Positions 3,294-42,905 of a stretch of DNA of 64,000 nt are shown one piece after another. Location: positions 4,938,001 to 5,002,000 of the forward strand of contig OX387610.1 in NCBI GenBank assembly GCA_947568835.1, read 5' to 3'. Numbering within the stretch: position 1 is the stretch's first letter; every line of letters starts with the position of its first letter. This DNA comes from Protonemura montana. Its lineage: Eukaryota; Arthropoda; Insecta; Plecoptera; Nemouridae. The notes under the pieces were generated by a model, which saw only the letters and a list, made by a program, of their open reading frames with translations, was not told where the DNA came from and ran no database searches. Made by a program: the position numbers and the translations under genes.

Positions 3294-3380
3294 ATGACCT
3301 CTGAAGACTGGACGCTTACTAACTATTCCACGGGACGGACGACTTGTGACAGATTTCACAAATCCACGCCTGTTTTTCCG
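3294..3380 (+). CDS. NOS: NOS exon 1 (start codon, N-terminal hook)
   Basis: Residues 1-29. The ATG at 3294 is the first in its frame after a stop at 3219. The exon ends in phase 0 at a strong GTAAGT donor, matching the phase-0 acceptor of exon 2. The stretch DRFHKST resembles the KST-containing hook that precedes the zinc cysteines in mammalian NOS. No other exon candidate was seen upstream in the window, but a 5' UTR exon or a longer isoform cannot be excluded. Confidence 0.6.
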
Positions 3381-6300
3381 GTAAGTGATTTATTTATTAC
3401 CGTTGAACTATTTATATTTGATTAATTAATTCAAGAATAATTAAGTTGAAAGGAAATGTCCATTACAATCTTGGTTACAGACCAATTTTAAGTGTCCTTT
3501 CTTTCAAAGGTCCAGTCATCAAGTATTGTGTTGGTAATTGTTACCTAATTTGGACCAATCGGGGATCTTTTGCTAATCATCGTCTTCTCTTGCTTACAAA
3601 CATGCTCCCTAAAATAAAGTTGACCAAAGTTTAGGGAATTGTACAAAAAAAAAAGTAAAGATTACATAAATTTTTTTTTTTTTTAACAATTTTTGGTCTT
3701 CTCTCGTCACAATATTTGATTATGATCATTGTACGGCTTAATGCCTTATGTAACATTTGGTCAATTAAAGGGAAACTATAGGGCAACAATGCTGTTCTTG
3801 GGGTACCTTTTTATTAATAAATGTAGCAATTGCTTGTCTATTTAGTGGAAATTAGAAAATTTCTAGCATCGCTACAAAATTTCGACAGTGTGACTATACC
3901 CTTTTAACTGGAAGGGTAGCCAGAATTGAAAAATGTGAGACCGAATCGGGACACGAACCCGGAACCTCCCATTTGCTGATCGGGTGCTCAACCAACTGAT
4001 CTATCCGGGCTCACATATTCCACCTTCGCCTTTGAACTGCATGTAAAACTAGAAATGCAACAAACACATTGAACATGGGACTCAAGCCACGGCTTTAAAA
4101 TCGCTTAACGTGATGAAGTCTCAGGGAAAAAGAGGATTATCTTCCACAATCACGACTGTCAATCAGAATTCTTGATCCAGGTTTCGGATTATTTAGGAAA
4201 CAGCTTTCGTCAATCTGTCTCACGCATCGATAGCGGAAGATTGATCGAGGCGATAAGAGTGCACTTGTTTAATAATGGCAAGGCTTTGGTCGCAAAACTT
4301 TAGCAGCTGATTTCAGAGAAACTATTCTGGCAAGGACAAAATGATTAAAAAAAAATGCAAAATGATAACCTATAAACTCCATTGTTCATTCAAGGACATG
4401 TATAGGACATAGGACATAGGACATAGGACATAGGACATAGAACATAGGACATAGGACATAGGACATAGGACATAGGACAAAGGACATAGGACATAGGACA
4501 TAGGACATAGGACATAGAACATAGGACATAGGACATAGGACATAGGACATAGGACATAGGACATAGGACAAAGGACATAGGACATAGGACATAGGGCATA
4601 GGACATAGAACATAGGACATAGGACATAGGACATAGGACATAGGACATAGGACTTAGGGCATAGGACATAGGACATAGGACATAGGACATAGGACTTAGG
4701 GCATAGGACATAGGACATAGGACATAGGACATAGGACATAGGACATAGGACATAGGACAAAGGACATAGGACAAAGGACATAGGACAAAGGACATAGGAC
4801 ATAGGACATAGGACATAGGACATAGGACATAGGACATAGGACATAGGACATAGGACATAGGACATAGGACATAGGACATAGGACATAGGACATAGGACAT
4901 AGGACATAGGACATAGAACATAGGACATAGAACATAGGACATAGGACATAGGACATAGGACATAGGACATAGGACATAGAACATAGGACATAGAACATAG
5001 AACATAGGACATAGGACATAGGACATAGGACATAGGACATAGGACATAGGACATAGGACATAGGACATAAGACATAGGGGTTTTAGGATTTTATAGGACA
5101 TGTTATAAGGACATGTTACATGTTAAAGAGAGATAAGGCAGATTTTGGGGCAAAATAAGATTCAAATTGCTGTTAGTAAGAATAAATTTAAATGTGCTCC
5201 AAATTTTAGTGATAAACTCCAAACTTACTTTACCCATAAAATATTAAATATGATGATCAAAGACCCTCTGTTTCTAGTTTTGAAGAAAAAGCAGTTTATT
5301 TCAAATGTCGATGGCAAGTGAAAAAATCAGGTACATCTAAGGTATTACTGTCGTCTGTCTTTTATTTTGGGATTACTCCATGGATTAGTAGATAGAGGCA
5401 TACCAATAAACTAGCATTGAGTGTGTTTCTTTCCAAGTGTTATAAAATTAAATGGCGGATTGGGCAGAAAAAAGCAATCTGTTGAAAAAAATGATCTTTA
5501 ATCTAGGACAGAATACTGTAATTTGATGTTACTCTGTGCCAGATTGCCCTCCTCTCTTCTAGGCTAGACCAAGTTCTTCGTCATGAGACCATATACCACA
5601 GAGCCAGTTGTCCAAATAGTGCGTCGTTAAACATTTTGATCACTGTGAGTATATTTTACTTGATAGACCCGATGCACTGCGAAGCAATGCAAGAGCAGTA
5701 TGATGGCCACGGACCTTGCCCCGGACTCAAGGACCTCCGAGGAACTTTTGAAGATGGCCAAGACTTTCATTGGCGAGTTCTACTCAAGTTCCGACAAGTA
5801 AGACCAGAAATATCGCTACACTTTTGAAGTACTTTGAGGGTTTGAATTTTCGATCTGCGTCAAACGATTTGTTAATCACTTGATAACAGAATGAGGATTA
5901 TATAAGTGCTGACTATTTTGTGTACAAAATTGATTTTCCTATCTCTTTTTATAACTGCTAAAGACGTCGAGGATTCAGAAACTCCACTTAATTTCGATTA
6001 ACTTTGATGAACTCCGCTTATCTCACTGCGATTTTGCTTAAAATTATTATTCGAGAATTCCTATACTGCAGTCAGATTCTTTAGAAATGTCTTTGAGATT
6101 TTACTTAGAAAAAAACTGGACATTTATATAGACAAAAATAGCCTGAAAGGTGCGATTTTGCTGCACAGTTGGGTTAAGTTTAAACTGCTGTACACCTAAA
6201 TCACTTACACTTAAATAAAATATCTTCAAGTTAAGACCAAAACCAGGCTAGTAGAATAGCTACCCAAAACATAAGAAATTAAAATTTTAATAATGTTAGA

Positions 6301-9300
6301 AATTCTCCTATGCATCCACTGGATTTTTCTGGTTACTATTTCCAGGGTGGATTCGCCGGAGCACTCGGTGAGGTGGGAGGAGATTGTCCATGATGTGAAC
6401 TCGAAGGGCTCCTACGAGCTGACCTTTGCAGAACTGGAGTTTGGGGCCAAGCTCTCCTGGAGGAACGCCAGTCGCTGCATCGGGCGTATTCAGTGGAACA
6501 AACTCAAAGTAAGCTCATGACATGCTCTACAAAACTCTGAAATTTATATTTAAATGTATAATAAATATTAAAACTAGGTTTAATTATTTCTTGATTCATA
6601 AATGGTAAGATAATAATTCTGTGTAAGGTTTTAAAGTTCCATAATAGCAGGTTAAAAAGAAGACTAACAGTTCAAGACTCATCTCTATGGTCACAGCAAA
6701 TCAGTCACTGATATTTTCATCTTAACAGCCGTTTGATTATTTAAATTGTCATCGTTAAACAGACCCTAAGTAATATTTTCAATTAAATACGTGACAATTA
6801 TTCTTGACTGCAGCCACAACAAGCTGGTAGAGGATGTAAGTGTTGGTGGTGGGCGAGAAGCGAGGGGCTATGTCGCCCTTCACAAATTGCAGATGAAAGA
6901 GCTATCATGTATGTTAAGAAATCACCAGATAGATCATATCGGCCAAAAAAACACATTCCCTTAAAAAAATATATTTAATTTCACAGTTTTTAAAGAAGCG
7001 AACATTCCATTGACATAATTGTGAGTATAATTTGATTTGTAGTGTTTATTATTGACCCACTATGTTTGTTTTGACAATTAAACCTGTGGCGCTAGTCTAA
7101 TGGGGTCAGTGAATGAGTGGATATTGATGAGGATGATTATAAATTTCACATAAAGTATCTCTGGAAAGAAGAAGAAAAACTCGTGTCCGTTCCGCAGGTC
7201 GGTATAGTATAACAGGACTTCTCCCCACATCCATTAAGTTATTTTTTTCCCAAACTGGTCATGATGGTCATCTATTTGTTCTATACCCGACCCTGCGCAA
7301 TGATCCGGATCCCATTAATAAAACTGGTATTGTTACAAGCGAAATTACTTCAATGACCCAACTAAATCACCGCAATCTTGTGTCCAGCTATTCGACGCCC
7401 GTCACGTGTTGACAACCAAGCAGATGTTCGACGCGATCTGCAATCACATCGTCTACGGAACCAACGGAGGTAACATCCGGCCGGCGATCACGATCTTCCC
7501 TGCACGCCGACAAGGACGCCCCGACTTCCGGGTGTGGAACCCGCTGGTGATGAGCTACGCGGGGTACGAGAACGAAGACGGGACGGTCACCGGTGACCCG
7601 GGCGCCGTCGCCTTCACAAAGGTACAGAGCATTGGTCACAAATCTACCTCATTATACTTTTATATTTTGTTTTATCTATTTTTAAATCTCTTAATTTTAC
7701 TATACGTCGAATCTACCTTGAATCTCGTATGCTTGACCTTTTTTTGGTAATCTTAGAAAAAATGTTCTGTCAAGATTTAAACAAAAATTGATATCTGTCC
7801 GTTTTGTTCCCGTTAAGTATAGGTTTGCATCCGTCTTGGCTGGATGGGACGTCGTACCAAATGGGACATCCTCCCCCTCGTGCTGTCATCGGGAGGAGCC
7901 TCACCTGACGTCTTCGAAATCCCTGAAGACATCGTGCTGCAAGTGCCACTCATTCATCCCTCGTGAGTGACTTAAGCCCACTACGCTTTGAATTTCGACC
8001 GATGGCGACATCCATACAAAAGCACTGGCTTGACTTGGGTGCTATTACCTGGAGAATGTGTCGTGATGTCATAATCACTACCCATTCAACGCTTAGAGGG
8101 ACTAAATGTTCGGGTTGCGATTGTGATTTTTGTGATTTGTGATTGCATTCTTTCGTCTCTAATCAATCATTTTGAAGCTTAAAAGTCGAAATGCTAATTA
8201 CGGTAAAACACATGTAAAAGGATGTGAAAATAAATTCACCGTTTGCACAGCACCTCTACCGCTAAGCCTCTACCTTTTAAAAAAATTAAAAATTAAAAAA
8301 TATATCAATATAAATATGATATTCCCTTATACCTTATAAGCAAACTAAATAGGTAGGATACGTTCATAGTTTGCACCAAAGTTTTAAATAGCCATACGAT
8401 TTAGCCTTGTACTGCCACAGGTAAGATAAAAATTAAGCAAATAACATTTAAAGGAAATGTAATTCAAATAGAACAAATGATCGACAAAGATATGTTATTT
8501 ATGCAAATAGATACGGGTGGTTCGAGGAGCTTGGACTCCAGTGGATAGCTGTGCCAGCCGTGTCCGGCATGCTCCTGGACTGCGGAGGAATCCAGTTTCC
8601 TGCTTGCCCCTTCAGCGCATGGAATGTCAGCACGAAGGTCGGATGTCGTGATCTCTGCGATCCACAGCGCTATAACATCTTGGAGGTGAGAACTTAACGA
8701 TGTTTTGTGTTGGTAACACTGGTTCTCGTGAGATCACTTAAGTAAAGCAACACAGCGCTGAGTCAGGTATTGGTTGGGTGACCACCAAATGGTTTGACGT
8801 GTTGGCAACACCGGCTCTCGTGAGATCACCGAAGTAAAGCACCACTGCGCTGAATCAGGTATTGGGTATATTGACCACCGAACAGTTCGGCGAATTTATA
8901 CCATCTACTCCTACCAACCATCTAGAATCTAGATAGACCATATAATGTTCCAGACTGTTGCGGTCGAGATGGGTGAGGACACGGGCAACGAGGCTTCCTT
9001 CTGGAAGGACCGCGCCCTGGTCGAGGTGAACGTGGCGGTGTTGTATAGCTACCAGCAGCAAGGTGTCACCATCGTGGACCACCACACGGCGTCGGACAAC
9101 TTTGTTCAACATCTTGAGAATGAGCAGAAAGCACGCAAAGGATGTCCGGCGGATTGGGTTTGGATCGTGCCGCCTATGTCCGGTGAGGAAATGAAGTTGA
9201 GAGCTTGGGGTGTCCAGTGTTCAGAGAAATGTTATGTTGACTTAAATTGTTGAAGATTAACTAGACTCTCAATAGTTTTTAGGTTCCAAACTGTGTTTTT

Positions 9301-12300
9301 TCTTCATATTTAAGTCGCGAAGAACGCTTTTATGTGCTTTGGGAGTACACTCAATACACTGTTTAGCACGCACAAAATGATCATCACATTGACGCGCCTA
9401 TAAACCCCATTATAAACATGGAATTATTCCAGTTGATTCCGTTATTTGCTAAATGAACCGTGAAATATATGATATTAAATATTAAAAAAATAATCTACCT
9501 TTTGAAGATATGATTATAGACGTTTGAAATCCCACTGACTAAAACTGAAACTTAAAAAGTCAAAAGTGCGACTTCACTGACACTTTGTTCTCTTTGTTAG
9601 CGTCACTGACTTCGGTCTACCACCAAGAGATGGCGTTGTACCACTTGAAGCCATCCTACGACCACCAGGTGCCGGCCTGGAAGACTCACGTCTGGCCAGA
9701 CGCGTCCACTAATTTGCAGCGCAGATTCACTCTTAAGCAGGTGGCCAGGTGAGCGTTGAATACCAAGGTGTCAGGAGATGTTTACAAAATTAGTTGTTCA
9801 AAATTTGATGCACCTTTATTAAAATTAGCGAGTAGTTCTATTTCAAAACAATCAACTAATTTCGTACGATTGGTAGCTTGTGTTAGGCATTTTTGCTGCC
9901 CCAGCGCTGCCTGTGTGTGATCGCAGCAACTAGATGCAAAGAAAACCTCTCACGCTTTCAAAAACCACGCAAAAGTAAACGAAATATTCCCTGTTATTGG
10001 GCAGAACACGGCCTTTGTGCTAGTTAATCTTCCTGGAACGGTTTATAAAAATAATGTGTGATTTACCTCAAACATTTTCATTTTCAATAAGAAAATGGCC
10101 CAACAACATTTAAAAACGATTACAAATCAAGTATATAATTATAGTGTTTATGATTGATTAGTGAAGTTAAGCGACGCATTTTTCTCACAATGGGCCATGT
10201 GGCACTGATCTAATGGTGTCGGTGACTTAGTTAATGACGTTGAGGATGATGAAGAACCTATCCTAGCCCAGTAGGGATAAGGGGAAACCCGGTGCCGGCA
10301 CGTAACCTGCTCATGTCGGAAAGCACCTAGGGGATCATCGGCTTAACATTCTCTCAGAAGGACGGTACAACGCGAACAGCAGGATTCCTCCACAAATCCA
10401 TGCTGTCGAGAGGTTGATTAGCTAGGCGAGTAAAATTGCTGTACTAACATTCATCACTCCAAGCTCTCTCCCGAACAGAACTGGTCATGTGTATGATGGT
10501 CACCCATCCAATACCTGACTCAGCGCAGTGTTTCTTAACTTTCATCCCTCCAAGCTCTCTCCCGAACAGAACTGGTCATGTGTATGATGGTCACCCATCT
10601 AATACCTGACCCAGCGCAGTGTTGCTTAACTTTCATCCCTCCAAGCTCTCTCCCGAACAGAACTGGTCATGTGTATGATGGTCACCCATTCAATACCTGA
10701 CTCAGCGCAGTGTTGCTTAACTTTCATCCCTCCAACCTCTCTCCCAAACAGAACTGGTCATGTGTATGATGGTCACCCATTCAATACCTGACTCAGCGCA
10801 GTGTTGCTTAACTTCAGGGATCTCACGAGGATCAGTGTTTCCAACACGCCAAACCGTTCGGTAAAAGTTTAAACTAGTAGTGTTTATAAGAGGAACATTC
10901 TCTTTTCTTTTCCGGTACAGTGTGGTGCAGGTTTGTACCGGCATGTACCGGCGTGCAATGCAGCGGCGCATGGACATGACCATCCTGTACGCCACTGAAA
11001 CCGGCAAGTCGCAGGTCTATGCCGAAAAGCTGGCCACAATCTTTGCCCATGGACTAAATCCAAAGGTGAGCATCATTTTTCAAAAAGTCTTACGTTTACA
11101 CACTTTTTACAACTAATATCTTAAAATCTTTGGGCCCTCTGCTTCCTGGTCTAGGTGGTGTGCATGGCTGATTACAACGTTGACTGCTTAAGCAAGGAGT
11201 CGTTGGTTCTCATCGTCGCCTCAACGTTCGGAAATGGCGATGCACCCGACAATGGAAGTGTGAGTTATTTACACTGATCTCAAATAATCTGGATAGAGCA
11301 TAGGATCCAGCCAGCTGATCTCAAATAATCTGGATAGAGCATAGGATCCAGCCAACTGATCTCAAATAATCTGGATAGAGCATAGGATCCAGCCAGCTGA
11401 TCTCAAATAACCTGAATAGAGCATAGGATCCAGCCAGCTGATCTCAAATAACCTGGATAGAGCATAGGATCCAGCCAGCTGATCTCAAATAACCTGGATA
11501 GAGCATAGGATCCAGCCAGCTGATCTCAAACAACATGGATAGAGCATAGGATCCAGCCAGCAGATCTCAAATAACCTGGATAGAGCACAGGATCCAGCCA
11601 GCTGATCTCAAATAACCTGGATAGAGCATAGGATCCAGCCAGCTGATCTCAAATAACCTGGACAGAGCATAGGATCCAGCCAGCTGATCTCAAATAACCT
11701 GGATAGAGCATAGGATCCAGCCAGCTGATCTCAAATAACCTGGATAGAGCATAGGATCCAGCCAGCTGATCTCAAATAACCTGGATAGAGCATAGGATCC
11801 AGCCAGCTGATCTCAAATAACCTGCACAGAGCATACGATCCAGCCGGCTGATCTCAAGTAACTCGGATAGAGCATAGGATCCAGCCAGCTCATCTCAAAT
11901 AACCTGGACAGAGCATAGGATCCAGTCATCTGATCTCAAATAACCTGGATACTGGTTGCCATGTAGAAACTTTGAAGCCACGACCGCCATCTTGAGTGTC
12001 CCTGATTTTGAGGTCTCTCAGATATTTAACTGAAAGTCATCTTCTTTACCGGATAGCTGAAAACATATCATTAGTATTTCAAAGATGACATAGTTTTTAA
12101 ACTATGTGTGATTTAAATCAAGCTTGTTTTTCTCAGGAGTTTGCACGCAAGCTGACGGCAATGAAGCAAGAAGCTGAGATCGTTACCATCCAGTTGATTG
12201 AACGAGCCGCTAGCGATGATCCCAGAAAGGAGGATGAGAGCAGTGAAAATCTCATGTCCGAGAGTATCAAGAAAGAAATTGGGACCGATGAGCTGAGCAG

Positions 12301-15300
12301 TGGAGGCGTTTTAGCTAACGTCAGGTGAGAACAATTAACGATTACTTGTTAGCGCTGTTGGCATTTGTACTATTGTATTATTTTCTTGGATCGTTTGAAG
12401 GGTATTACAGAAAAAACCTTAATGAGTTACATAAAAAAAAACACGTTTAATATAACTGGTATTGGTAACTTAAACGGTAAAATTGTCTACACTACTTATT
12501 ATTTATTCAGTCAATGGTTGGGAATCCAAGTCTGCGATAGTTTTTGAAAAAAGAGCCGTTATTGGGTTTATTTTGAAATGTCTATCATTTTGTGAACTGT
12601 AATGGATATCTTGCAGTCTTAATATTTCTCGATTTTTACCAATTCCTTTTGAATCTTTTTCATTGATGTTAATCTGTGTATAGATCCTTTTGTACTTATG
12701 CAGTACCAAGTTTCACCTATTTTTAATTAAAATAGGCAACATCATCGATTTTATTTAGCATTAAGCTTACCCAACTATAATCACACTTTGTGAATCGTTG
12801 CCTGAGGAGATATTTTATAAACCTTGTTTCAACTGCTTGCTAATTTTTAACATGACACCCTAGCGTGGTCAGGGGTATTTATAAAAAAAGGTGTTTTTTT
12901 GTTTGTGTTTTTAGCGTGTTCTTTCAGGAAGAAATCATTTAACTGAATTTGGTTTCAAAGCAAAATAAGTATTTTTTACCAGAAAATTAACGATTAATCA
13001 AGATTAGGCCCCAAATTAAATAAGTACTGTCTTTGTTCCTAGGTACGCGGTGTTCGCGTTGGGTTCCAGTGCTTTCCCTCCCAACTTCTGTGCGTTTGGC
13101 TTCAAAATAGACAACCTGTTCAGTCAACTTGGGGCCAGGAGGTTGATGGACGTCGTTGTTGGTGACGAGCAGAAAGGGCAGCAAAAGTCATTCCGGTAAG
13201 ATGCTTCTGATTGATTAAGCTTATCAGGTAACAAAGCATATTCACGAGAAAAATGTTTCAATACGCTAGGTTTTAAATGATAATTGAAGAATAAAAGTGA
13301 GGGTCTAATAAAGAATTAATGCCGTGTAGAAACATCTCTTGATCCCGGAGAATGATTTTACTTACGTTAAGATATATACTTTTCAAAATATTGAAATTTA
13401 GAACTATGATTAAATATGGACGACGTTACCATATTATAATGTTGTAAGAAGCCTGCGTCGTCTGCCATTTTAAATGCCACTTTTCAGATAGAAACAATAT
13501 TGTTAGATTTCAAAAATTGACGTTTGAAAACGGTTCAGCTAAATACTGAAAAGAAAAAAAATAGCTACTTTTGAAACTGACACTTCTGAAACAACACATT
13601 GCAAGCTCTGATCTGATGACAAGATTCATGGTAGCATTTGTTTTCAACATGTTAAGTTTAACAATATCTAGTTAAACATTTAACCATCAGTTAAAGTTGT
13701 CCACGGTCACAGCCAGTCATCAGATATATATATTTTCATCCTAATGTACAGTTACTTTTTGAACTGGACATCGTAAAACTGACCCCAACTCAATTCTCTG
13801 GAGCAGACCGTATTTCGTCGAGGACCATAAACTTGTTTGTATCCTATAAGATTTATTTTTGATTTTTGTATTTATTTATTTTTGTATTTATTCATGTTAC
13901 ATAAGCCTTGGCTTGTGTGTGGGAAAGGTACAAACATTACACCTTTGTAAGGGTTTCCTATTCAAGATGGTAACATAGTCAAATATAAGAAACATATAGA
14001 CATTTAGTAAAAGATCAGTTCGTCCATTAATTATAAGTATAATCAGATGTAAGTTTTAAGATTGTCATAGTAAAACATCACCTGCTTACACCTCCTTGCA
14101 GCAAATGGTTCTCAGAGATCTACCCCTTGTCGTGTCAGACATTCAACATCGCCGTCGACAAGAGCGTCTTGGAGTCTGAGATGACTGCTTTTGAGACGCG
14201 ACTCACTGAGAAGTCGGTACGATTCGTCTCGGCAAGGGGGGAACTTCTGCTTGCCGGTAAGATCATGGAAAAGCTAAACAAATAAAGACATGGAAAATCA
14301 TGGAAAGTCAACTATGTCAGTCAAGAAATGTTAGTTTTGAGTTTTCATCATTGAAGTTTCAGGTTTAGTCAAAGGGTTAGTTAATGTTAATGTTAACTTT
14401 CTGCTGAGCAAACGAGCCGGCAACATGTGGTAATGTAGGTGCCACCCGATGGCGCTCGCTGTATTCCTTTTTAACAAACCTCTATAATGAATATTTAGGA
14501 CTGAAAATATCGTTGCTTGTTTATCAATTGTCAAGGTTGGCGTTAATTAAGATAAATTGAGCGTAGACAAATCTTTGAAAGTTAGTACAGCAACTTCATT
14601 CGCCTTGCTTATCAACCTCTCGACAGCATGGATTTGTGGAGGAATCCTGTGGTTTGCGTTGTATTTGAAAAACCGGTGGTCCCCTTGGTGCTCTTCGACA
14701 GGAGTAGGCTAAGTGCCGGCACCGGGTTTTCCCTCCTCCCTTCTACGCTAGGTTAAGTTCATCATCATCATCCTCATCATCATCCACTGATTCACCGACG
14801 CCATTAGACCAGTGCCACAGGACCCGTTGTCATAACAGTGCGTCGTTAAGCACAATAATTAATCAATCAATCGGTCATGTAACGGCCAATTTCACGGAGA
14901 CAGTTTAACGTTAACGCTTTGTTACTAAAATTTTGCTTTTCAGCAGGATGCACTAATGTTATAATTCTGGTTTTTCACAGCTCTGAAAAAGATTACCAGA
15001 CGAAACGTGGAGGGCTGCAAAGTGATTAGAAAAAGTCAGCTGCACAAAGTCGGAGAAAAGTAAGTCAATAACAGGGTAGATCACTTTGATAAGAGTTTAA
15101 ATTTGATCTAATTTGCATACAATTTCAGTAGCAACCGAACTGGGTTAAGAACTAGGGACCTCCCGATTGTTGGTTTGGTATTGTACCAATTGCTTAGTCT
15201 GTGGACAGATGTGATATGTGATCGCACAGATCAGAGCTTTGCAGAATGGCCTCCAGATCAAAGTAGTCTTCAGATTTGTTTAGGTTATGTATCCAGGATG

Positions 15301-18300
15301 GCAGTTGAAAAATGTCTTCTAAATTTTATCATTAGGGACACTAAAAAAACTCTCACAAATCGGGTACATCTTTTAGAGCTATCTTTAGAAACCTGTCTGT
15401 ATGTAAGGTCGATCTTATGACTTTACGGTCTCCCACTAATTTTGAAGCTAAGAAAAACTTCAACAATGACTCTTTACAGTTCCAGCACGATCCTGTTGGA
15501 GCTTGCCAGCGAGGAGCGCTACCTACCTGGGGACCACGTCGGCGTCCTACCGGAGAACCGAGCCGAGCAGGTGGACGGACTCCTGCGTCGCTTGGACTCC
15601 AACCTTGACCCCAACAAGGTGGTCGCGTTGCAGCTGCTCTCGGAGAAGAACACGGGACAAGGTAAGATGTTGGCTATGGTTCTTAAATGAAGATTTGATT
15701 TTGACCTTTGACTTTTGATGTCAGTGCCTAGAACTAGGAATGGATTCAAGGTTATGTTTGAAGTCTAATTAAAAAAAAAAACTTTTGGTAATACGAAAAA
15801 CTATTTGAAATGGGTTTTGAATGCTAAGTAAGGGACAACTAAAATTTCCCGACGTTTCGTAACATGTACTAGCTACTTCTTCAAGGGTTAAAACAGTTAG
15901 TTAGAGTTAGAGCATTAGTTGGAGCAGGATTTCACAGTAAATATTGCTGAAATTGTCTAAAAATTAAGAAATATTTTATACAAATGTGGAAAATACCATT
16001 GGGTAAATAAACATGTTTGGGTAAGCATGCTGCACTGTAATTTCTAAACATCTTCGACTGTCATGCCATTAAACTGCCAATTCAAGATAGGAACCCAAAA
16101 AACAAAATAGCCAACACACAGCCTTCTTGCCTAAGAGCTCTTATGGGTGAACGTTATTCTCAGGCTGAGTGTCAGCTGTTTTTTCGGTGGTTCTTAACCT
16201 TGTTTATGGTAAAAAAAATCCTATTTTCTTCACATCGAACGCCAATAAAAGCTGCTGATAGATTTTTTCATTGAAAGCATGTCACGTCCAGAAATCAGCT
16301 TACCTGTATCTCTTAGATCAATTGCCTCTTGCTGGAGGTATATTTCTGCTTATTAATAATTATAATCCCCTTATCCCAACCCCGCGAAAGCTGGAATTTG
16401 TGTGTCCGGATAGCTCAGTTGGTAGAGCACCCGACCGGCAAGTGGGAGGTCCCGGGTTCGTAACCCGGTTCGGTTGCACATTTTTCCTGTCTAGCTTCCT
16501 TTCCATCATCCGCTTGCTGATTTAAGCTCCCTTGTGGAAATGCCAGAAAATCCAAAAAACACTGCATTATAATGGAAGTTAATGTTACAAAATTGTACAA
16601 CTTGTAAGTCTGGGCTTCGTCATTTGAGGCAGTGGAAAGGGTGGTGGTGGTGGTGGTGGTGGTGGTGGTGGTAGACATTAACCATGGTATTATTTAGTTA
16701 TTAAATCGAAACGTTTTGTATGTGCCTTCAGAAAAGATACCATTAGTTTCCAAAAGAAATCGGTTATTTATTTATTTATTAATTTTTTAAGTTCAGAGTG
16801 AAGCAAACACAATATGACTCCAGTTACCAGACCTGACCACTAACAGTTAAGAACGATTGACTATCAGGCTCGTGGTCGCCGCATGGATCGCTGCCCGCGT
16901 GCTCGCTGCGCACGCTGCTCACGCGCTTCCTGGACATCACCACACCGCTGCGCCCGTTGCAGCTTGAAGCGTTGCTGCCCCTGGCGACGGCACCGGAGCA
17001 GGCGCAGCGACTGGCGCAGCTGGCGACGGTACGTTATGTGTTTCTAATACCCTGATTGCGAGATTAGGATGTGAATTACTTTTAAGGCAGAAACTTTGTT
17101 TCCATTCTCAACAAATAATGAGCTGTCGCTATGTACTAAGGTTGATGAATGCAGACTTAAATTAGTAGAAGAACTCAAAACGCTACTTAGGTCGGGTCTT
17201 ACCAAAATTTTCAACTATAAGTTGGATCTCTAACTCACAGAAATATCTTATTTTCACTGCATGTGATTGGCAATAGTTTCAACTAACACTTCAACTAGGA
17301 GGCAAGATTTTGATCAATCCGGACCTACTTGAGGGTGAATTCTACTTTGACCAGGAATTTCTAGAGCACAGAACATCTTAAAATGTATTGTTGATTCATA
17401 TTTTTAAATGAATGATTGTCGGATCTGCAATAAAATAGAGTTGCATAATAGATGATTGATAGATAACTATATTATACACTTATTAAGGGGGATATTTAGA
17501 ACGATGGTTAGCGCTTTTACAACAATGTTATGATACTATCATTAGGTTAATGCCTAACTGTCTCAATTCATGCAGTTGAATTACAACACATGCTTTTGTG
17601 AGCAACTGGAAAGATAATGAAATGCCGTATCTACTTATGTAGGACTTCCCTTCTCCTGAACACCCACCCAAACCAAAACTGTCTCTAAACTTGGAAAACT
17701 AATGACTACCCTGTGCTTGCCATAGAAATTTCAGTACAACTTACCACCTTGTCTCCCCACCAGGACTCCATCAAGTACGATGAATGGGTGACTCTCCGTC
17801 AACCCACAGTCCTCGAAGTCCTCGAGGAGTTTTCTTCCATCCGCGTCTCGCCCGCATTGTTAGCGGCCATCCTCCACCCTCTGCAGTCGCGATCTTACAG
17901 CATCAGCTCCTGCAGAGACGTGCATCGAGGACAGATCCATCTGACAGTGAGCGTGGTCAGCTACCGCTCGGAGGCTGGAGTAGGACCAATGCACTACGGA
18001 GTCTGCTCTAACTACCTCAACGACATCGCAGTTGATGAACTGGTCTACTTGTTCGTCAGAAAGTTAGTACCTAGTGCACTGGTAGAGATTTGATCTTTTA
18101 ATAATTACTTTACTACAACTGTTTTGTCATGAAGATTTGGAACTATCAAGGTACTGAGACTCACTTAATTTCTATCCTACGTGGACACACCGCTTTGGAT
18201 GAATAGGCCGATGGTTTTCTGGGCCACACCCTTGCATGACAGCTACTTTTTCCACAGTGGCAAGCACTTTGCATTGCCGCTGGATGTCAGCAAGCCGGTG

Positions 18301-21300
18301 ATAATGGTGGGCCCTGGCACAGGCATAGCGCCCTTCAGGGGATTCTGGCAACAACGTCACCACCAGCGCAGCCAAGTTGTCAACGGTGAGCAAATAAAGC
18401 ATACTTTTTTGGATTTCTTTGTGTTTGGATGTATTTTATAAAACTGAGCTATTAAAATGCACCGAGCTCCCGAACTGATTTTGTCCAAATGGCAAAGATT
18501 AAGAAGTATTATAGTTTTTAAACTCATGTCTACTTTTTCTAATCTCAGCCCTAGTTTTGAAAAGTACTATTTAATATTAGGGGATTTGAATGCTATAAAA
18601 ATTCACTATAGGTTTTTATACCTTCGCATTACATTTTTTTTTAAAATATTCAACGAAAAACTAAAAGTTTAAAAAATTTGTATGGGTTTAAATGGAAGTG
18701 AAAGTTTTGAAAGATTCATCATATTGTTTACAACTTTCAGAAAAAATTCAATTCTTAGGCTGTGGTTTTTTTTTAACCATTGAAAGGACTTAGACAGCTT
18801 TGGCCATAAATATAATTATGAGAAGTTTTGTAAATATCAAAAGCTTTTAACCACCCCAGACTGTTGTATTGTCATCGATTTAATTCGACGACAAATCGTT
18901 TGCCGATCTCCCGACAGGTGTCTCTAGGTATCATAATTTCACAGAGAAAGCACGCGAGGAGTTTGGCGAGATGACGCTGTTCTTTGGGTGCCGCGATCGT
19001 GACATGGATTTGTTCCACGACGAGAAGATGAAGATGGTCAAGGAGGGTGCACTCAGTTCTGTCTTCGTGGCGCTCTCGCGGGACTCTTCGGTGCCAAAGG
19101 TGAAACAGAGGACGATAGAAAGAAAATATTTTAAAACTTAGTTTTTTGTTGCTTAGGCCTGGTATTTCAATATTTCTTAACTATTAACTTAACACTTAAC
19201 ACTTAACTTAAATATTATAGGTTATAACTGTTCAGTGAAACGTTTTCTGCTGATATTTTAAGACCCGATGCTCTCAAATCTCAATGGAGCAGCTTTAAAA
19301 TAACTTCAAAAAATACTAATCGCCGTAGAAAAGCATTTCTTTCATCGCAAGATGGGGTTATTTTACCAACTATCCTCGATATCGAAGGTTAGAAACAGAG
19401 TGGCAAGCATATCCACCCTTGAATTTCAAAGTCAATGGAATTCTAACATTTAATATAAAAAAATTTCAAAATATCCCAAATCATCTCTGAGGAAATAGGC
19501 ACTAGAAAACAGGTCACGTACAATAATTCAATATTTATTAACATAGCACCACTCTACATCAATGACCTTTGCATTTTCAAAACCAATACCATGAATGCAA
19601 TTACAGATATACTTTACATCATCATTGAGTTTACAGATACCTTCAGAGGGAAAGGGTTATTCGTTCTACTGAGCAAACGAGCCGGCAGCACGCGGTAACA
19701 GTAGATGCCATCCGATAGCGCTTGTAACCGTTTTTTTTTTTTTAATTACATCAATAATTAATTAATTAAAACTAAAAATATCGATACAGAAACATCAATC
19801 GTTGAGGTTAGTATTAATGAAGATTAATTGAGCGTAAACTAGTCTCAAATGCGAGTTATCTGCGAGAAATAACAAAACAGTTTTTCCTGACAGCAGAAAG
19901 AACGGTGACTTCACCTAAATACATCCTCCATTTTTGTCTTTAAAGTAGTCATTTGGCAGCCATTGGAAGACAGTTTGACAGTTTGACAGTTTGACAGTTT
20001 GACAGTTTGACAGTTTGACATAAGCGTTACAGTAGTACTTTATGATGATGTCCGATGCCGGGAACGGAATACTTGTTTGAAAAAGTGCTAGAAAAACGTA
20101 CTAACGAGGCAATCTGTATTTCAACAAAACATTTATTAGGTTTATCATATTTTATTTAAATTCCCGCCTAAGGGAAGGGCTAGGTAGCGGACCGCTCAGT
20201 ATCACTATTAACATCCTTTAGATAGGAGAGAGACATACGCCGAGGGTGTGTGGCCGTATGGAGTGTGTAACCCGTCACAAAAGAGGGTAAATGTGTTTTT
20301 TAAAGTGAGATTCGATTGAGTTTACAAGAAAACATTTCATTCTTATGAAAGACCAACCTGACGAGAGCACATGGACGTCGAAAGCAACATTGAACATTAA
20401 CACTAAGGTACTAAGGTACCATCATATCCAAGGCACCCTAAGATATAGACACACTAAGCTGCAATCCATGCTTTTTAACCCATATGATTGCCCAAAACCT
20501 AACCAATTTCCTTTCTTCCCTGCCCCATTGCAGACATACGTGCAGCACGTGCTAGCGCAGCAAGGCTCAGCCGTATACCGTTCGTTGGCTGCGCAAGGCG
20601 GTCACCTCTTTGTCTGCGGCGACGTCTCGATGGCCGAGGGTGTACGCAAAGCTCTTACTACCGTCGCTAAGCAGCAAGGGTACCTGGACGATGAAGCCGC
20701 CAATCAGTTCATAGACCAACTCAAGGTATAAAAGGATGAATTAAAAAAAAATTATGAATTTGTTACATTTATGGTAATTGGTCCCCGAAAAGCATAAATT
20801 CATCTTTCTATAACTTTTTCACTTTGAAAAATCTCTAAAACTTGGATTAATGTGCTAAATGCTGACAAGCCCTAACGCAGGATCAACAGTCATTAAGAAT
20901 TTTGCGTCGTTTAAATTAAGTTTCTTTAATTATTGCCAGCTAAGACATCAGAATAAGCTTGCTACATAAACATATATATGTGTTTTTAAAAGGCTCGTAC
21001 GTTATGCCATGTAATCTTTTGAAAATGCATTAATTTAAAGCTTGGGTAGAGCATAAGATCCAGACAGCTGATCTCAAATAACCTGGATAGAGCATAGGAT
21101 CCAGCCAGCTGATCTCAAATAACCTGGATAGAGCATAGGATCCAGCCAGCTGATCTCAAATAACCTGGATAGAGCATAGGATCCAGCCAGCTGATCTCAA
21201 ATAACCTGGATAGAGCATAGAATCCAGCCAGCTAATCAAATAACCTGGAAAGAGCATAGGATCTAGCCAGCTGATCTCAAATAACCTGGATAGAGCATAG

Positions 21301-23035
21301 GATCTAGCCAGTTGATCTCAAATAACCTGGATAGAGCATAGGATCCAGCCAGCTGATCTCAAATAACTTGGATAGAGCATAGGATCCAGCCAGCTGATCT
21401 CAAATAACCTGGATAGAGCATAGGATCCAGTCAGCTGATCTCAAATAACCTGAATAGAGCATAGGATCCAGCCAGCTGATCTCAAATAACCTGGATAGAG
21501 CATAGGATCCAACCAGCTGATCTAAAATAACCTGGAAAGAGTATTGGATCCAGCCAGCTGATCTCAAATAACCTGGATAGAGCATAGGATCCAGCTAGCT
21601 GATCTCAAATAACCTGGAGAGGGCATAGGATCCAGATAGCTGATCTCAAATAACCTGGATGGAGCATAGGATCCAGCCAGCTGATCTCAAATAACCTGGA
21701 AAGAGCATAGGATCCAACCCGCTGATCTCAAATAACCTGGATAGAGCATAGGATCCAACCAGCTGATCTCAAATAACCTGGAAAGAGTATTGGATCCAGC
21801 CAGCTGATCTCAAATAACCTGGATAGAGCATAGGATCCACCTAGCTGATCTCAAATAACCTGGATAGAGCATAGGATCCAGCCAGCTGATCTCAAATAAC
21901 CTGGAAAGGGTATTGGATCCATGGGAGCATAGGAGCGAAGATGAACTCAAGATCATGGACTTTTAAGATGGCGGCCTTGGCTTCAAAGTCTCTCTACGAT
22001 AACCTTTATCAATTTTATTTCAGATCATTAGAAGCTCTAGTCCAGTTTTTATTCTAGGACTCTGATCGCTCTGAAGTGGTTTTTTAGAAATAAAGGTACC
22101 TTTTCTTGGGACAAGCTACTAACTGAATACTCGTCTAGTGTGACCTTATTACGTTTGATCAGATAAATCTGGGGAAACTTTTGAACGAAACATCTTTAAC
22201 ATCCTTTCGTTTACCTACTAGGAAGAAAATCGCTACCATGAAGATATCTTCGGCGTGACTAGACACGGAGTCACCCACGAGCCGCCGTCGAAGACACCGA
22301 CAAAGACATTGACGTTGGCGTCGGCGTCGTTGTCGACATCCGACAAGAGAAAACAGCCTGGTCTAGTTGGCAGAGTATTTTGCTGTTCAGCAAGCACAGG
22401 TAAAATAACAATTTAATAGGTATTGGATGGGTGACCATCATACACATGACCAGTTCTGTTCGGGAGAGAGGTTGGAGGGATGAAAGTTAAGCAACACTGC
22501 GCTGAGTCGGGTATTGGATGGGTGACCATCATACACATGACCAGTTCTGTTCGGGAGAGAGGTTGGAGGGATGAAAGCTAAGCAACAGTGTGCTGAGTCA
22601 GCTATTGGATGGGTGACCATCATACACATGACCAGTTCTGTTCGGGAGAGAGGTTGGAGGGATGAAAGTTAGAACAACTTCACTCGCCTTGCTAATCAAC
22701 CTCTCGACAGCATGGATTTGTGGAGGAATTCTGCTGTTCGTGTTGTACCGTCCTTCGGAAGGGACGTTAAGCCGGTGGTCAGGAGTAGGCTACGTGCTGG
22801 CACCGAGTTTCCTCTCCTCCCTTCTCGAATAGGTTAGATTTATCATAGTCGTCATCATCATCTACTCATTCACCGACGCCGTTAGACCAGTGCCGCAGGG
22901 CCAGTTGTCAAAACAGTGCGTCGTTAAACACTGCAAATCAATCAACAATTTAACAATGCACAATAGTTTTTGAACCAGCGTCGCATGTATCCGAGAATGT
23001 TGACAATGTTTTTATTTATCTTTCCAGTCAACTAA
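3294..23035 (+). CDS. NOS: Nitric oxide synthase gene (21+ exons, about 1,150 aa)
   Basis: Nitric oxide synthase normally oxidises L-arginine to citrulline and NO, using NADPH, FAD, FMN, heme, tetrahydrobiopterin and calmodulin. I joined 21 exons whose splice phases all agree: 3294-3380, 5667-5797, 6346-6508, 7388-7621, 7823-7962, 8511-8685, 8954-9182, 9601-9748, 10921-11065, 11155-11259, 12137-12324, 13043-13195, 14102-14256, 14981-15059, 15480-15661, 16868-17028, 17764-18062, 18258-18385, 18918-19099, 20534-20725, 22222-22399. Seen: zinc motif CTAKQC (residues 32-37), heme Cys117 in NASRCIGR, calmodulin-type basic helix (about 420-453), ATETGKS (460-466), an insert before [17 protein letters not shown] (868-873), GPGTGIAPF (943-951) and [10 protein letters not shown] near the C-terminus. 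Length matches animal NOS. Odd: the residues equivalent to murine iNOS Gln257, Tyr367 and Glu371 are Ser227, Asn290 and Lys294, so L-arginine use is uncertain. The last exon is not settled. The family call is secure; full activity is not. Confidence 0.95.
3934..4014 (-). repeat. tRNA-derived element, family 1
   Basis: Reverse complement reads as a decayed tRNA (AGCTCAGTTGGT-like box A, GGTTCGT-like box B) and matches copies at 16404, 38099 and 46089. In NOS intron 1. Confidence 0.6.
4404..5080. repeat. 7-bp tandem array (GGACATA)n, about 96 units
   Basis: Variants AGACATA, GGACAAA and GGGCATA are interspersed. Because 21 bases make seven codons, the - strand stays open in three frames (YVLCPMS repeats), which is a by-product of the period. 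In NOS intron 1. Confidence 0.95.
5546..5635 (+). mobile_element. 5S-derived SINE, 3' tail fragment
   Basis: Ends in the family tail GTGCGTCGTTAAACA, 30 bases before NOS exon 2. It probably supplies part of the 3' end of intron 1. Confidence 0.6.
5667..5797 (+). CDS. NOS: NOS exon 2 (zinc tetrathiolate motif)
   Basis: Residues 30-73, beginning [13 protein letters not shown]. The C-x4-C pair (Cys32, Cys37) is the zinc-binding motif of the NOS dimer interface, and the following Ser matches the pterin-contacting position. The exon continues with [19 protein letters not shown], the first helix of the oxygenase domain. Acceptor TAG at 5664-5666; donor GTAAGA. The motif lies upstream of the first in-frame ATG pair at 5700, which shows that this exon is internal rather than the start. 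Confidence 0.9.
6346..6508 (+). CDS. NOS: NOS exon 3 (heme-ligating cysteine)
   Basis: Residues 73-127. Contains [18 protein letters not shown]: Cys117 is the proximal heme ligand and Trp111 the stacking tryptophan found in all NOS. Acceptor TCCAG and donor GTAAGC are both strong. Confidence 0.96.
7070..7145 (-). mobile_element. 5S-derived SINE, 3' tail fragment
   Basis: Contains TGGCGCTAGTCTAATGGGGT and the GATGAGGATGAT stretch of the family tail, inverted, in NOS intron 3. Confidence 0.5.
7388..7621 (+). CDS. NOS: NOS exon 4 (oxygenase core)
   Basis: Residues 128-205. Carries the typical oxygenase strings [29 protein letters not shown] and DFRVWNPL, followed by YAGYENEDG and [10 protein letters not shown]. 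Phase 0 at both ends. Codon use is markedly GC-rich compared with the flanking introns. Confidence 0.96.
7823..7962 (+). CDS. NOS: NOS exon 5 (substrate channel, Gln to Ser)
   Basis: Residues 206-252, [20 protein letters not shown] then [17 protein letters not shown]. In mammalian enzymes this stretch reads LLQANG or VLQANG, and its Gln holds the arginine carboxylate. Here the position is Ser227 (TCA, 7886-7888). The splice acceptor is the TATAG ending at 7822. The joins to both neighbours are in phase. Confidence 0.93.
8003..8104 (+). repeat. Solo relative of the 63-bp satellite
   Basis: AGCACTGGCTTGACTTGGGT, then GGAGAATGTGTCGTGATGTC and CATTCAACGCTTAGAGG. It resembles both the monomer and the right edge of the array at 33.6-35.4 kb (TTTAATGCGCTGAGGGG). 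In NOS intron 5. Confidence 0.8.
8511..8685 (+). CDS. NOS: NOS exon 6 (substrate pocket, Tyr to Asn and Glu to Lys)
   Basis: Residues 252-310. [11 protein letters not shown] and PAVSGMLLD align with the family, then [17 protein letters not shown] replaces the usual FSGWYMGTEIGVRDYCD. The glutamate that binds the arginine guanidinium is Lys294 (AAG, 8635-8637), and the adjacent tyrosine position is Asn290 (AAT, 8623-8625). Trp289, Arg298 and Asp299 are kept. The exon is otherwise open and well spliced, so it is not an obvious pseudogene exon. Confidence 0.95.
8705..8895 (+). mobile_element. 5S-derived SINE heads, tandem dimer
   Basis: Two copies, 92 bases apart, of the 5S rRNA-like part (GTTGGCAACACCGGCTCTCG, GAGATCACCGAAGTAAAGCA, GGGTGACCACC) with no SINE body. 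In NOS intron 6, ending shortly before exon 7. Confidence 0.75.
8954..9182 (+). CDS. NOS: NOS exon 7 (pterin site and dimer interface)
   Basis: Residues 311-387. Includes [33 protein letters not shown] and [14 protein letters not shown]. The two tryptophans of DWVWIVPP are the pterin-stacking and neighbouring residues of the family and are both present. Confidence 0.96.
9601..9748 (+). CDS. NOS: NOS exon 8 (end of oxygenase domain)
   Basis: Residues 387-436. Begins [12 protein letters not shown], equivalent to SGSITPVFHQEM; the pterin-contacting Phe position is Tyr. Continues PAWKTHVW, then the basic start of the calmodulin-binding segment ([10 protein letters not shown]). Confidence 0.94.
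10170..10865 (-). mobile_element. 5S-derived SINE with four internal 91-bp repeats
   Basis: Reading on the - strand: 5S-like head, then four tandem copies (period 91) of the block from the 5S box C (GGATGGGTGACCATC) through the CCAGTTCTGTTCGGGAGAGA segment, then the body and tail. It fills most of NOS intron 8. Confidence 0.85.
10921..11065 (+). CDS. NOS: NOS exon 9 (calmodulin helix and FMN P-loop)
   Basis: Residues 436-484. [17 protein letters not shown] completes a basic amphipathic calmodulin-type helix, followed directly by [19 protein letters not shown], the flavodoxin FMN-phosphate loop. Acceptor TACAG at 10916-10920. Confidence 0.96.
11155..11259 (+). CDS. NOS: NOS exon 10 (FMN domain)
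   Basis: Residues 485-519. Contains [18 protein letters not shown], the second FMN-binding loop. Donor GTGAGT at 11260 opens straight into the 41-bp tandem array. Confidence 0.95.
11272..11955 (+). repeat. 41-bp tandem satellite, about 16 units (array 1)
   Basis: Unit CTGATCTCAAATAACCTGGA / TAGAGCATAGGATCCAGCCA / G. Most units contain GGATCC and CAGCTG. It fills most of NOS intron 10, starting right after the donor. Confidence 0.95.
12137..12324 (+). CDS. NOS: NOS exon 11 (autoinhibitory-type insert)
   Basis: Residues 520-582. After [14 protein letters not shown] comes a charged, Ser/Glu/Lys-rich segment of about 40 residues ending GGVLANV. This sits where the constitutive mammalian isoforms carry the autoinhibitory loop and inducible NOS does not, suggesting calcium-responsive control. 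The function is inferred from position only. Confidence 0.93.
12325..13042. other. NOS intron 11
   Basis: AT-rich; no recognisable repeat or gene seen. Confidence 0.4.
13043..13195 (+). CDS. NOS: NOS exon 12 (FMN domain, third loop)
   Basis: Residues 582-633. [20 protein letters not shown] is the typical VFGLGS...FCAFG loop of the FMN domain. [11 protein letters not shown] matches the GDE..GQ..AF stretch of the family. Confidence 0.95.
13196..14101. other. NOS intron 12
   Basis: AT-rich. No tandem array or SINE recognised. Confidence 0.4.
14102..14256 (+). CDS. NOS: NOS exon 13 (FMN-FAD linker)
   Basis: Residues 633-685. [20 protein letters not shown] followed by a divergent linker and [14 protein letters not shown]. 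It aligns loosely with the linker of vertebrate NOS. The splice phases on both sides support it. Confidence 0.88.
14390..14575 (+). mobile_element. Dispersed element with CTGCTGAGCAAACGAGCCGG core
   Basis: Begins near TAACTTTCTGCTGAGCAAAC, includes GTGCCACCCGATGGCGCT, and ends near AATTGAGCGTAGAC. Other copies: 19655, 52740, 61490 (inverted), 63810. Probably a SINE or MITE. Confidence 0.65.
14575..14880 (+). mobile_element. 5S-derived SINE, 5'-truncated
   Basis: Lacks the 5S head. Retains TTATCAACCTCTCGACAGCA, the GATTTGTGGAGGAATCCTG body and an AATCAATCAATC tail. In NOS intron 13. Confidence 0.75.
14981..15059 (+). CDS. NOS: NOS exon 14 (start of FAD domain)
   Basis: Residues 685-711, a short basic exon ([20 protein letters not shown]) matching the HKKRV...SRQNLQ region before the FAD domain. 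Acceptor TTTTTCACAG and donor GTAAGT are strong, and its phases fit its neighbours. It is too short to be seen by simple ORF scanning. Confidence 0.88.
15480..15661 (+). CDS. NOS: NOS exon 15 (FAD domain)
   Basis: Residues 711-772. [20 protein letters not shown] and VLPEN match the STIFVRL...YQPGDHLGVFPGN signature of the reductase module. Confidence 0.95.
15785..15860 (+). mobile_element. Dispersed element Y fragment
   Basis: AAACTATTTGAAATGGGTTT then GAATGCTAAGTAAGGGACAAC, shared with 27085, 28430 and 58745; the partner half (ACTCATGTCTACTTGATTT) is absent here. Confidence 0.6.
16404..16479 (+). repeat. tRNA-derived element, family 1 (Ala-GGC-like)
   Basis: GTCCGGATAGCTCAGTTGGT and GGTCCCGGGTTCGTAACCC give D- and T-arms, and the anticodon loop would read GGC. 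The acceptor stem pairs poorly. The element is flanked by CCCGCGAAAGCTGGAA and GTCTAGCTTCCTTTCCATCA, as in the 38.1-kb copy, so it is a repeat rather than a tRNA gene. Confidence 0.7.
16639..16674 (+). repeat. (GGT)n microsatellite
   Basis: About twelve GGT units in NOS intron 15. Confidence 0.9.
16868..17028 (+). CDS. NOS: NOS exon 16 (connecting domain)
   Basis: Residues 772-825. Contains [20 protein letters not shown] and [11 protein letters not shown], matching LPPCT...YLDITTPPTPLQL. It is the most GC-rich exon of the gene, and none of its frames was obvious until the phases of exons 15 and 17 fixed it. Confidence 0.93.
17190..17335. mobile_element. MITE-like element with terminal inverted repeats (copy 1)
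   Basis: Starts GTCGGGTCTTACCAAAAT and ends near ATTTTGATCAATCCGGAC, decayed inverted ends. Interior CACTGCATGTGATTGGCAAT is shared with copies at 51758 and 57335. In NOS intron 16. Confidence 0.7.
17764..18062 (+). CDS. NOS: NOS exon 17 (FAD binding)
   Basis: Residues 826-925, the longest exon. Contains [21 protein letters not shown] (FAD-binding Arg-x-Tyr-Ser), [12 protein letters not shown] and [11 protein letters not shown] placed the donor at GTTAGT (18063), which gives the phase required by the next exon; a GTACCT three codons later is the alternative. Confidence 0.94.
18258..18385 (+). CDS. NOS: NOS exon 18 (NADPH ribose/pyrophosphate loop)
   Basis: Residues 925-968. Contains [20 protein letters not shown], the NADPH-binding glycine loop and following helix. 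The acceptor is TCCACAG at 18251-18257. Confidence 0.96.
18918..19099 (+). CDS. NOS: NOS exon 19 (NADPH domain)
   Basis: Residues 968-1028. [20 protein letters not shown] matches [25 protein letters not shown] matches TAYSREP..PK. Confidence 0.95.
19655..19900 (+). mobile_element. Dispersed element with CGAGCCGGCAGC core
   Basis: Second copy of the element at 14390, here longer: it continues past GATTAATTGAGCGTAAAC into CTCAAATGCGAGTTATCTGC. In NOS intron 19. Confidence 0.65.
19970..20022 (+). repeat. 9-bp tandem repeat (GACAGTTT T-type), 6 units
   Basis: ACAGTTTGACAGTTTGACAG repeats with a nominal period of 9. In NOS intron 19. Confidence 0.85.
20534..20725 (+). CDS. NOS: NOS exon 20 (NADPH domain)
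   Basis: Residues 1029-1092. [31 protein letters not shown] and ANQFIDQLK match KYVQDVL...GGHIYVCGDVTMA. Its donor is GTATAA, a weaker site than the others. Confidence 0.95.
21040..21920 (+). repeat. 41-bp tandem satellite, about 21 units (array 2)
   Basis: Same unit and orientation as the array at 11.3 kb. It fills NOS intron 20. The right flank (AAGATGGCGGCCTTGGCTTC) is the inverted counterpart of the right flank of array 1. Confidence 0.95.
22222..22399 (+). CDS. NOS: NOS exon 21 (C-terminal tail)
   Basis: Residues 1093-1152. Begins [13 protein letters not shown], the conserved end of the NADPH domain, then a lineage-specific Thr/Ser/Lys-rich tail ending RVFCCSAST. If spliced at GTAAAA (22400) to the acceptor at 23027, the protein ends two codons later (Val-Asn-stop, TAA 23033-23035). 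Read-through instead gives a stop at 22416-22418. The first option is preferred because it uses two usable splice sites. Confidence 0.85.
22415..22950 (+). mobile_element. 5S-derived SINE with three internal 91-bp repeats
   Basis: Three copies, period 91, of the GGATGGGTGACCATCATACA / CCAGTTCTGTTCGGGAGAGA block, then a normal body and tail ending GTGCGTCGTTAAACACTGCA. Lies just after NOS exon 21. Confidence 0.85.
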
Positions 23036-42471: not shown

Positions 42472-42905
42472 TAACCGAACGGTTTGGTGTGTTGGAAACA
42501 CCGGTTCTCGTGAGATCACCGAAGTTAAGCAACACTGCGCTGGGTCAGGTATTGGATGGGTGACCATCATACTAATTATTCTGTTCGGGAGAGAGGCTAG
42601 AGGAATGAAAGTTAGTACAGCAACTTCACTCGCCTTGCTAATCAATCTCTCGACAGCATGGATTTGTGGAGGAATCCTGTTGTTCGCTTTGTACCGTCCT
42701 TTGGAAGGGACGTTAAGCCGGTGGTCTCCTCGGTGCTATTTAACAGAATTAGGCTACTTGCGGGCACCGGGTTTCCCCTCAACTTTTCTAGGCTAGGCTA
42801 GGTTCATCATCATCCACTCATTCATCGATGCCATTAGACCATGGTGCCACAGGGCCCCTTGTCAAAACAGTGCGTCGTTAAACACAATAATCATCACCGA
42901 AATTA
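42472..42905 (+). mobile_element. 5S-derived SINE, full-length, best 5S match
   Basis: Contains AACACCGGTTCTCGTGAGAT, CACCGAAGTTAAGCAACACT and GGTATTGGATGGGTGACCAT, nearly the 5S rRNA internal promoter region including boxes A and C. Body and tail are complete (AACAGTGCGTCGTTAAACAC). Confidence 0.92.

Follow-up and report, generated by a model that had tools for sequence, protein, structure and literature searches.

The nitric oxide synthase (NOS) gene described here, gene C, lies in a 64,000-nucleotide stretch of the genome of Protonemura montana (Plecoptera), which we call the window (contig C13:4938001-5002000, from an assembly of 258 Mb in 34 contigs). Its protein has lost the residues of the L-arginine site, with the rest of the NOS scaffold kept, and codon substitution rates show the gene to be under purifying selection in this altered state. 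We lean towards the view, without going so far as to call it probable, that C is a maintained NOS pseudo-enzyme, which may act as a dominant-negative or tuning subunit of canonical NOS. The three other NOS genes of the assembly are named A, B, and D.

The Arginine Pocket of Gene C

Gene C occupies positions 3294-22413 of the plus strand. The earlier note had reported that all 21 exons splice in phase, and the model bears this out, with GT-AG borders throughout, no stop codon, and 1147 residues encoded. The NOS oxygenase profile PF02898 matches the protein over its whole domain length (523.7 bits, profile positions 2-362 of 362), followed in order by flavodoxin (PF00258), flavin adenine dinucleotide (FAD, PF00667), and NAD (PF00175) domains, all above cut-off. 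Among solved structures, mouse iNOS oxygenase domains are the best matches to this domain of C. Exon 9, which carries the putative calmodulin helix, is almost identical to its counterpart in canonical B and, by eye, less basic than that of A. By descent, as its domains indicate, C is an animal NOS.

We aligned C to mouse iNOS (4js9) and use the numbering of the latter, in which the Glu of GWYMGTEIG is residue 371. C differs at Q257→L180, Y341→I264, N364→S287, G365→A288, Y367→N290, M368→V291, E371→K294, and Y485→H408. In rat nNOS, Glu592 is the partner of the guanidine group and Tyr588 that of the α-carboxylate, with Gln478 and Val567 also in the pocket (PMC6120233, in part). Rat residues 592, 588, 478, and 567 correspond to iNOS 371, 367, 257, and 346. 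We take Gln257 (nNOS Q478) to be the holder of the carboxylate, and Tyr485 presumably serves a heme propionate. The replacement of the latter by His408 is less telling, as Tyr485 is present in only 59 of 80 prokaryotic NOS.

The remaining scaffold is conserved. W366, R375, D376, and R382 are unchanged, as are the heme Cys (C117 in C), the two Cys of the zinc CxxxxC motif (C32/C37), and W455/W457 (W378/W380); R375 (R298 in C) and the latter two Trp belong to the pterin site. The pterin-site F470 is Tyr in C and likewise in B and D, and R260 is Ser in all four genes and hence not specific to C. A further change concerns the flavin mononucleotide (FMN) loop, which reads AFPPNF in C vs AYPNF in the three other genes; in related flavoproteins, the corresponding Tyr stacks on FMN.

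Most of the residue assignments in the earlier note agree with this alignment, including the positions of Cys117, Asn290, and Lys294, the replacement of the pocket Tyr by Asn290 and of the Glu by Lys294, and the retention of the zinc Cys, heme Cys117, and pterin Trp. Its choice of Ser227 as the carboxylate-holding Gln has to be rejected: that residue falls in the column of mouse residue 304, and it is uninformative because A, B, and D carry Ser there as well. The true position is Leu180, which is replaced too. The FMN, FAD, and NADPH motifs had also been described as intact. The flavodoxin, FAD, and NAD domains are indeed present, but the FMN loop is changed. We infer that C binds no arginine and produces no nitric oxide (NO). 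A NOS by descent, C should probably not be filed as an NO synthase, given its substrate residues.

The changes are concentrated in the substrate pocket. For Fisher tests we used a list of substrate contacts, of which E371, Y367, Q257, and V346 come from PMC6120233 (in part) and the remainder are presumed contacts. C departs at 13 of the 158 oxygenase columns in which A, B, D, and mouse iNOS all agree, comprising 6 of the 12 contact columns vs 7 of the 146 others (p = 6e-5). The contrast holds within the exons 4, 6, and 8 (6/12 vs 5/73, p = 7e-4), which differ strongly from B (see below), and within exon 6 (5/11 vs 0/21, p = 0.002); it is weaker when agreement between B and D alone is required (6/13 vs 40/334, p = 0.003; exon 6, p = 0.035).

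A sample of prokaryotic NOS was assembled from the best 80 of 179 relatives, retrieved with a five-row alignment query and the patterns RCIGRIQW and TI-DHH, the arginine site being excluded. The C protein alone, used as a query against the genome-contig collection, returned no relative. In the sample, E371, G365, and M368 are present in 80/80 sequences each, followed by N364 (78/80; Ser in 2), Y367 (78/80; Phe in 2), Q257 (77/80; Lys in 2, Leu in 1), and Y341 (74/80; His in 6). Position 371 is Glu in all 84 other sequences compared (80 prokaryotic NOS, mouse iNOS, A, B, and D). Over the 97 columns conserved to at least 95% across this set of 84, departures number 16 in C, 5 in A, 7 in B, 6 each in D and mouse, and at most 6 in any prokaryote. 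Among the prokaryotic sequences, a cyanobacterial NOS (L047) carries Leu at 257 and shares Arg457 and His341 with a second one (L061); in two NOS from Balneolia metagenome-assembled genomes (L064 and L071), residue 257 is Lys and residue 367 is Phe.

Three Further NOS Genes and an Exon Mosaic

Searching the genome with PF02898 yielded 22 scored candidates and 21 exon matches; the latter group into the four genes A, B, C, and D. The models of B and D, made by choosing for each C exon the GT-AG stretch that matched best under identical phases, run end to end with 21 exons each, 1146 and 1134 residues, and no stops. The model of A covers the oxygenase, beginning at the heme exon and extending to the calmodulin region, with further exon matches up to the NADPH domain; the first exons of A could not be located. 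Upstream of its heme-Cys exon lie several partial copies of that exon in tandem (contig C1, around 31976633-31977593, L009). A and B keep Q257, Y341, Y367, and E371, and D does likewise except for Phe at 341. The canonical paralogue that the earlier note had thought possible elsewhere in the genome is therefore represented by three NOS genes with Q257, Y367, and E371.

Comparison of the genes revealed a mosaic. The synonymous distance (dS) between B and C is low (0.03-0.24) in 11 of the 21 exons (3, 5, 7, 9, 13, and 15-20) and high (0.75 to saturation) in the other 10 (1, 2, 4, 6, 8, 10, 11, 12, 14, and 21), while that between B and D ranges from about 0.2 to 1.3 without a bimodal pattern. Site patterns group B with C in exons 3, 5, and 7 (26 vs 3; exon 9 has no informative site) and B with D in exons 4, 6, and 8 (28 vs 10). 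When two trees were compared by codon likelihood, ((B,C),D) was better by 11.6 lnL for exons 3, 5, 7, and 9, and ((B,D),C) by 14.1 lnL for exons 4, 6, and 8. From this mosaic we infer that gene conversion has overwritten 11 of the 21 exons. The old exons support an origin of C before the split of B and D.

The blocks of high B-C identity mostly stop within tens of bases of an exon, where the introns cease to align. In places they reach further, as before exon 15 and after exon 19 (Table 1) and for about 60-74 bp into the intron following exon 17. Because the blocks extend into introns, the template would have been genomic DNA. The direction was probably mainly from B into C, because the B-D distances in those exons look ordinary. 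Exons 4 and 6, which carry the arginine site, are among the unconverted ones, and this suggests selection against their overwriting.

The replaced residues could be artefacts of assembly or of the splice model, and C an ordinary NOS. We consider this extremely unlikely. No positive point speaks for it, many changes occur together in exons 4 and 6, whose dS to B is 0.75 and 1.25, and no spare or alternative NOS exon appeared within the introns of C among the matches listed by tblastn (C as query, E up to 1). The exon borders of B and D match those of C as well, a weak argument because their models were made on C with phases required, so that agreement in exon number and phase is built in.

Purifying Selection on Gene C

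We estimated the ratio of nonsynonymous to synonymous rates (dN/dS, ω) on the C branch with codon models. In the three-gene model, the unconverted exons except exon 11 (417 codons) gave an ω for C of 0.126, with ω = 1 fitting worse by a twofold log-likelihood difference (2ΔlnL) of 140.9; exons 4 and 6 gave 0.131 (2ΔlnL 40.4). Because the C branch of this model includes the stem to B and D, we added A as an outgroup, which resulted in 0.106 for exons 4, 6, and 8 (2ΔlnL 15.0) and 0.117 for exons 4 and 6 (2ΔlnL 10.6). In the converted exons, the three-gene model gave C an ω of 0.37 vs 0.15 on B and D (2ΔlnL 7.5), still below 1 (2ΔlnL 7.2). Perhaps some relaxation has occurred in the recently copied parts of C.

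Could C be a recent pseudogene, or a duplicate under relaxed constraint that is being lost, whose frame is kept only by conversion from B? The raised ω of the converted exons and the loss of the pocket residues would fit, but the unconverted exons, unprotected by conversion, show ω of 0.11-0.13 at dS of at least 0.75 with neither stop nor frameshift. We regard this explanation as very unlikely, and the ω of the unconverted exons rules it out as the leading view. The dN/dS estimates and the open frame thus agree with the statement in the earlier note that C is not a case of simple decay.

Possible Functions of Gene C

The preferred explanation, a pseudo-enzyme partner of canonical NOS, would run as follows. 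C split from the NOS set before B and D separated, and then lost the residues gripping L-arginine under selection that kept the scaffold. Short patches, mostly single exons, would later have been copied from B into C, the arginine-site exons not being overwritten. The protein would fold, bind heme and pterin, and dimerize, yet bind no arginine and hence presumably make no NO. In animal NOS, electrons cross between the subunits of the dimer. A heterodimer of C and B may be weak or dead, since C lacks the arginine site and its FMN loop is doubtful, and C could serve as a gene-encoded inhibitor or tuner, like the role proposed for truncated splice forms in Drosophila. The altered FMN loop and the raised ω in the converted exons would suit a reduced catalytic demand.

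Several observations weigh against this explanation. A pure decoy would have no use for the FAD/NADPH half, yet C retains it, although conversion could maintain this part passively. The raised ω of C was not significant in the four-gene test on exons 3, 5, 7, and 9 (0.157 vs 0.075, 2ΔlnL 1.5). Nor is it surprising in itself that neither arginine-site exon was converted, the probability being about 0.21 by simple counting with 10 of 21 exons having escaped. The residues of C at S236P, V240I, Q243A, and F420Y are common among prokaryotic NOS, in which Y485 is variable and Q257L occurs once. Single clamp residues are absent in some of them (Q257 in 3/80, Y341 in 6/80; Phe for Y367 in 2/80), and for this reason a single clamp loss is no proof of lost NO synthesis.

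The earlier note had raised another substrate or a redox or superoxide-producing role, each of which we rate as less likely than the partner role. In one such alternative, C may be a calcium-switched NADPH oxidase, in which, without arginine, the heme or the reductase gives electrons to oxygen and generates superoxide or H2O2. Such an enzyme would fit the retention of the heme and pterin residues and of the FAD and NAD domains, as well as the reductase exons 15-20, lately copied from a canonical NOS, and superoxide has been reported from both the oxygenase and reductase domains of NOS (PMC4605588, in part). The Tyr to Phe change and the extra Pro of the FMN loop, absent from A, B, and D, speak somewhat against an efficient oxidase and make a non-catalytic partner at least as likely. 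An oxidase also fails to explain the concentrated pocket changes, because uncoupling needs no rewritten pocket. We consider it unlikely, and favor the partner role over it because, with both sites of C damaged, a C-B dimer would be poor in both directions.

It is more doubtful still that C is a NOS-derived oxygenase with another substrate, in which an acidic group located above the heme would be the new partner of Lys294, and L180, I264, and N290 would form a greasier wall. The charge reversal at E371, several linked pocket changes, and ω near 0.12 would accord with a new substrate, but the FMN loop change does not, and the pocket changes equally fit simple disuse. Its more specific form, which we hold to be no likelier, is a new heme-pterin oxygenase of an acidic metabolite, where conversion would renew the parts for electron supply and dimerization and selection would shield the two substrate-site exons.

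Comparison with Known NOS

C resembles canonical animal NOS (mouse iNOS 4js9; A, B, and D) in domain order, heme Cys, pterin Trp, FAD and NADPH domains, zinc Cys (the first exons of A being outside its model), and the 21 exons of B and D, which were modelled on C. It differs in the replacement of Q257, Y341, Y367, E371, N364, G365, and M368 and in an FMN loop longer by one Pro. Site-directed mutants of iNOS E371 and eNOS E361 reportedly abolish arginine binding while heme and pterin stay; these are single laboratory changes, whereas C presents several natural changes together. No report of a natural NOS without the guanidinium-binding Glu was found among the matches listed in the literature searched.

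Duplicated NOS genes are known from the crustacean Daphnia, where NOS1 and NOS2 stem from an old duplication and the second copy evolves faster under constraint, with Dn/Ds of 0.10 and 0.14 between two species for partial sequences (PMC2724039, in part). A faster copy under purifying selection is what they share with C; unlike C, both Daphnia active sites are described as typical, and the retrieved part of the paper reports no loss of arginine residues (PMC2724039). Truncated dNOS isoforms of Drosophila have been proposed as dominant negatives of the dimeric NOS (PMC7367490, in part), but they are splice forms of one gene, whereas C is a full-length separate gene. As a natural, full-length, and apparently selectively maintained NOS without the guanidinium Glu, C offers a test of whether NOS pseudo-subunits serve in the regulation of NO in animals, and of whether the NOS scaffold evolved other chemistry. 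C and B may also exemplify conversion that keeps the general parts of two genes alike without erasing a functional difference between them.

Table 1. Coordinates of the NOS genes, exons, residues, and B-C identity blocks (window positions unless a contig is given; dS is to gene B).
Feature	Position	Strand	Remarks
Gene A	contig C1, ~31.977-32.017 Mb		PF02898 exon matches
Gene B	C13:4919707-4937938		tandem; ends ~3.4 kb upstream of C
Gene D	C13, ~12.545-12.568 Mb	minus	7.6 Mb from C
C exon 1	3294-3380	+	GT-AG, in-phase model
C exon 2	5667-5797	+	zinc Cys32 and Cys37 (CTAKQC)
C exon 3	6346-6508	+	heme Cys117; dS 0.06, read as gene conversion
C exon 4	7388-7621	+	old divergence, dS 0.75; Gln257→Leu180
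C exon 5	7823-7962	+	
C exon 6	8511-8685	+	old divergence, dS 1.25; Y341→I264, N364→S287, G365→A288, Y367→N290, M368→V291, E371→K294
C exon 7	8954-9182	+	pterin-site Trp378 and Trp380; dS 0.18
C exon 8	9601-9748	+	
C exon 9	10921-11065	+	putative calmodulin helix, start of FMN domain; dS 0.09
C exons 10, 11, 12	11155-11259, 12137-12324, 13043-13195	+	
C exons 13, 14, 15	14102-14256, 14981-15059, 15480-15661	+	
C exons 16, 17, 18	16868-17028, 17764-18062, 18258-18385	+	
C exons 19, 20, 21	18945-19099, 20534-20725, 22222-22413	+	exon 21 extended to its stop codon
Leu180 codon CTG	7544-7546	+	replaces pocket Gln (iNOS Q257); Q in A, B, D and 77/80 prokaryotic NOS
Ile264 codon	8545-8547	+	replaces iNOS Y341
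Asn290 codon	8623-8625	+	replaces iNOS Y367
Lys294 codon AAG	8635-8637	+	replaces guanidinium-binding Glu (iNOS E371, nNOS E592)
His408 codon CAC	9663-9665	+	Tyr485 in A, B, D, and mouse iNOS
FMN loop F-P-P	13074-13082	+	Tyr→Phe plus one additional Pro, in frame, compared with A, B, D
B-C identity block	15124-15663	+	540 bp, of which ~356 bp lie in the intron preceding exon 15; 94.8% identity
B-C identity block	18936-19375	+	exon 19 plus ~276 bp of following intron; 93.0%

Other Features of the Window and Assembly

Downstream of C, the window holds a lipase-type gene on the minus strand in two open reading frame pieces (29376-31995; PF00561 at 29376-29741 and PF04083 at 31708-31995). Four scattered elements score as 5S ribosomal RNA (Rfam), at 10743-10861, 27487-27607, 42474-42590, and 53376-53494, the first of which sits in intron 8 of C. 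Related-looking 91-bp tandem units occur at 10445-10814 and 22418-22671, and together with the 5S-scoring elements they suggest a 5S-derived short interspersed element.

The window also contains an interstitial array of about 230 GGTTA units (48805-49956, 86% matches), equivalent to TTAGG in another register, which we take to be the arthropod telomere repeat. Long minisatellites with 63-bp and 43-bp units lie at 33636-35374, 1156-2887, and 43968-45166, the 43-bp unit forming two arrays about 41 kb apart. Elsewhere in the assembly, a mitochondrial-type cox1 was found on the 15.9-kb contig C34, and contig C4 has two matches, one equal to it in length and score and the other partial (L022, L021, L023); those on C4 are probably nuclear mitochondrial insertions.
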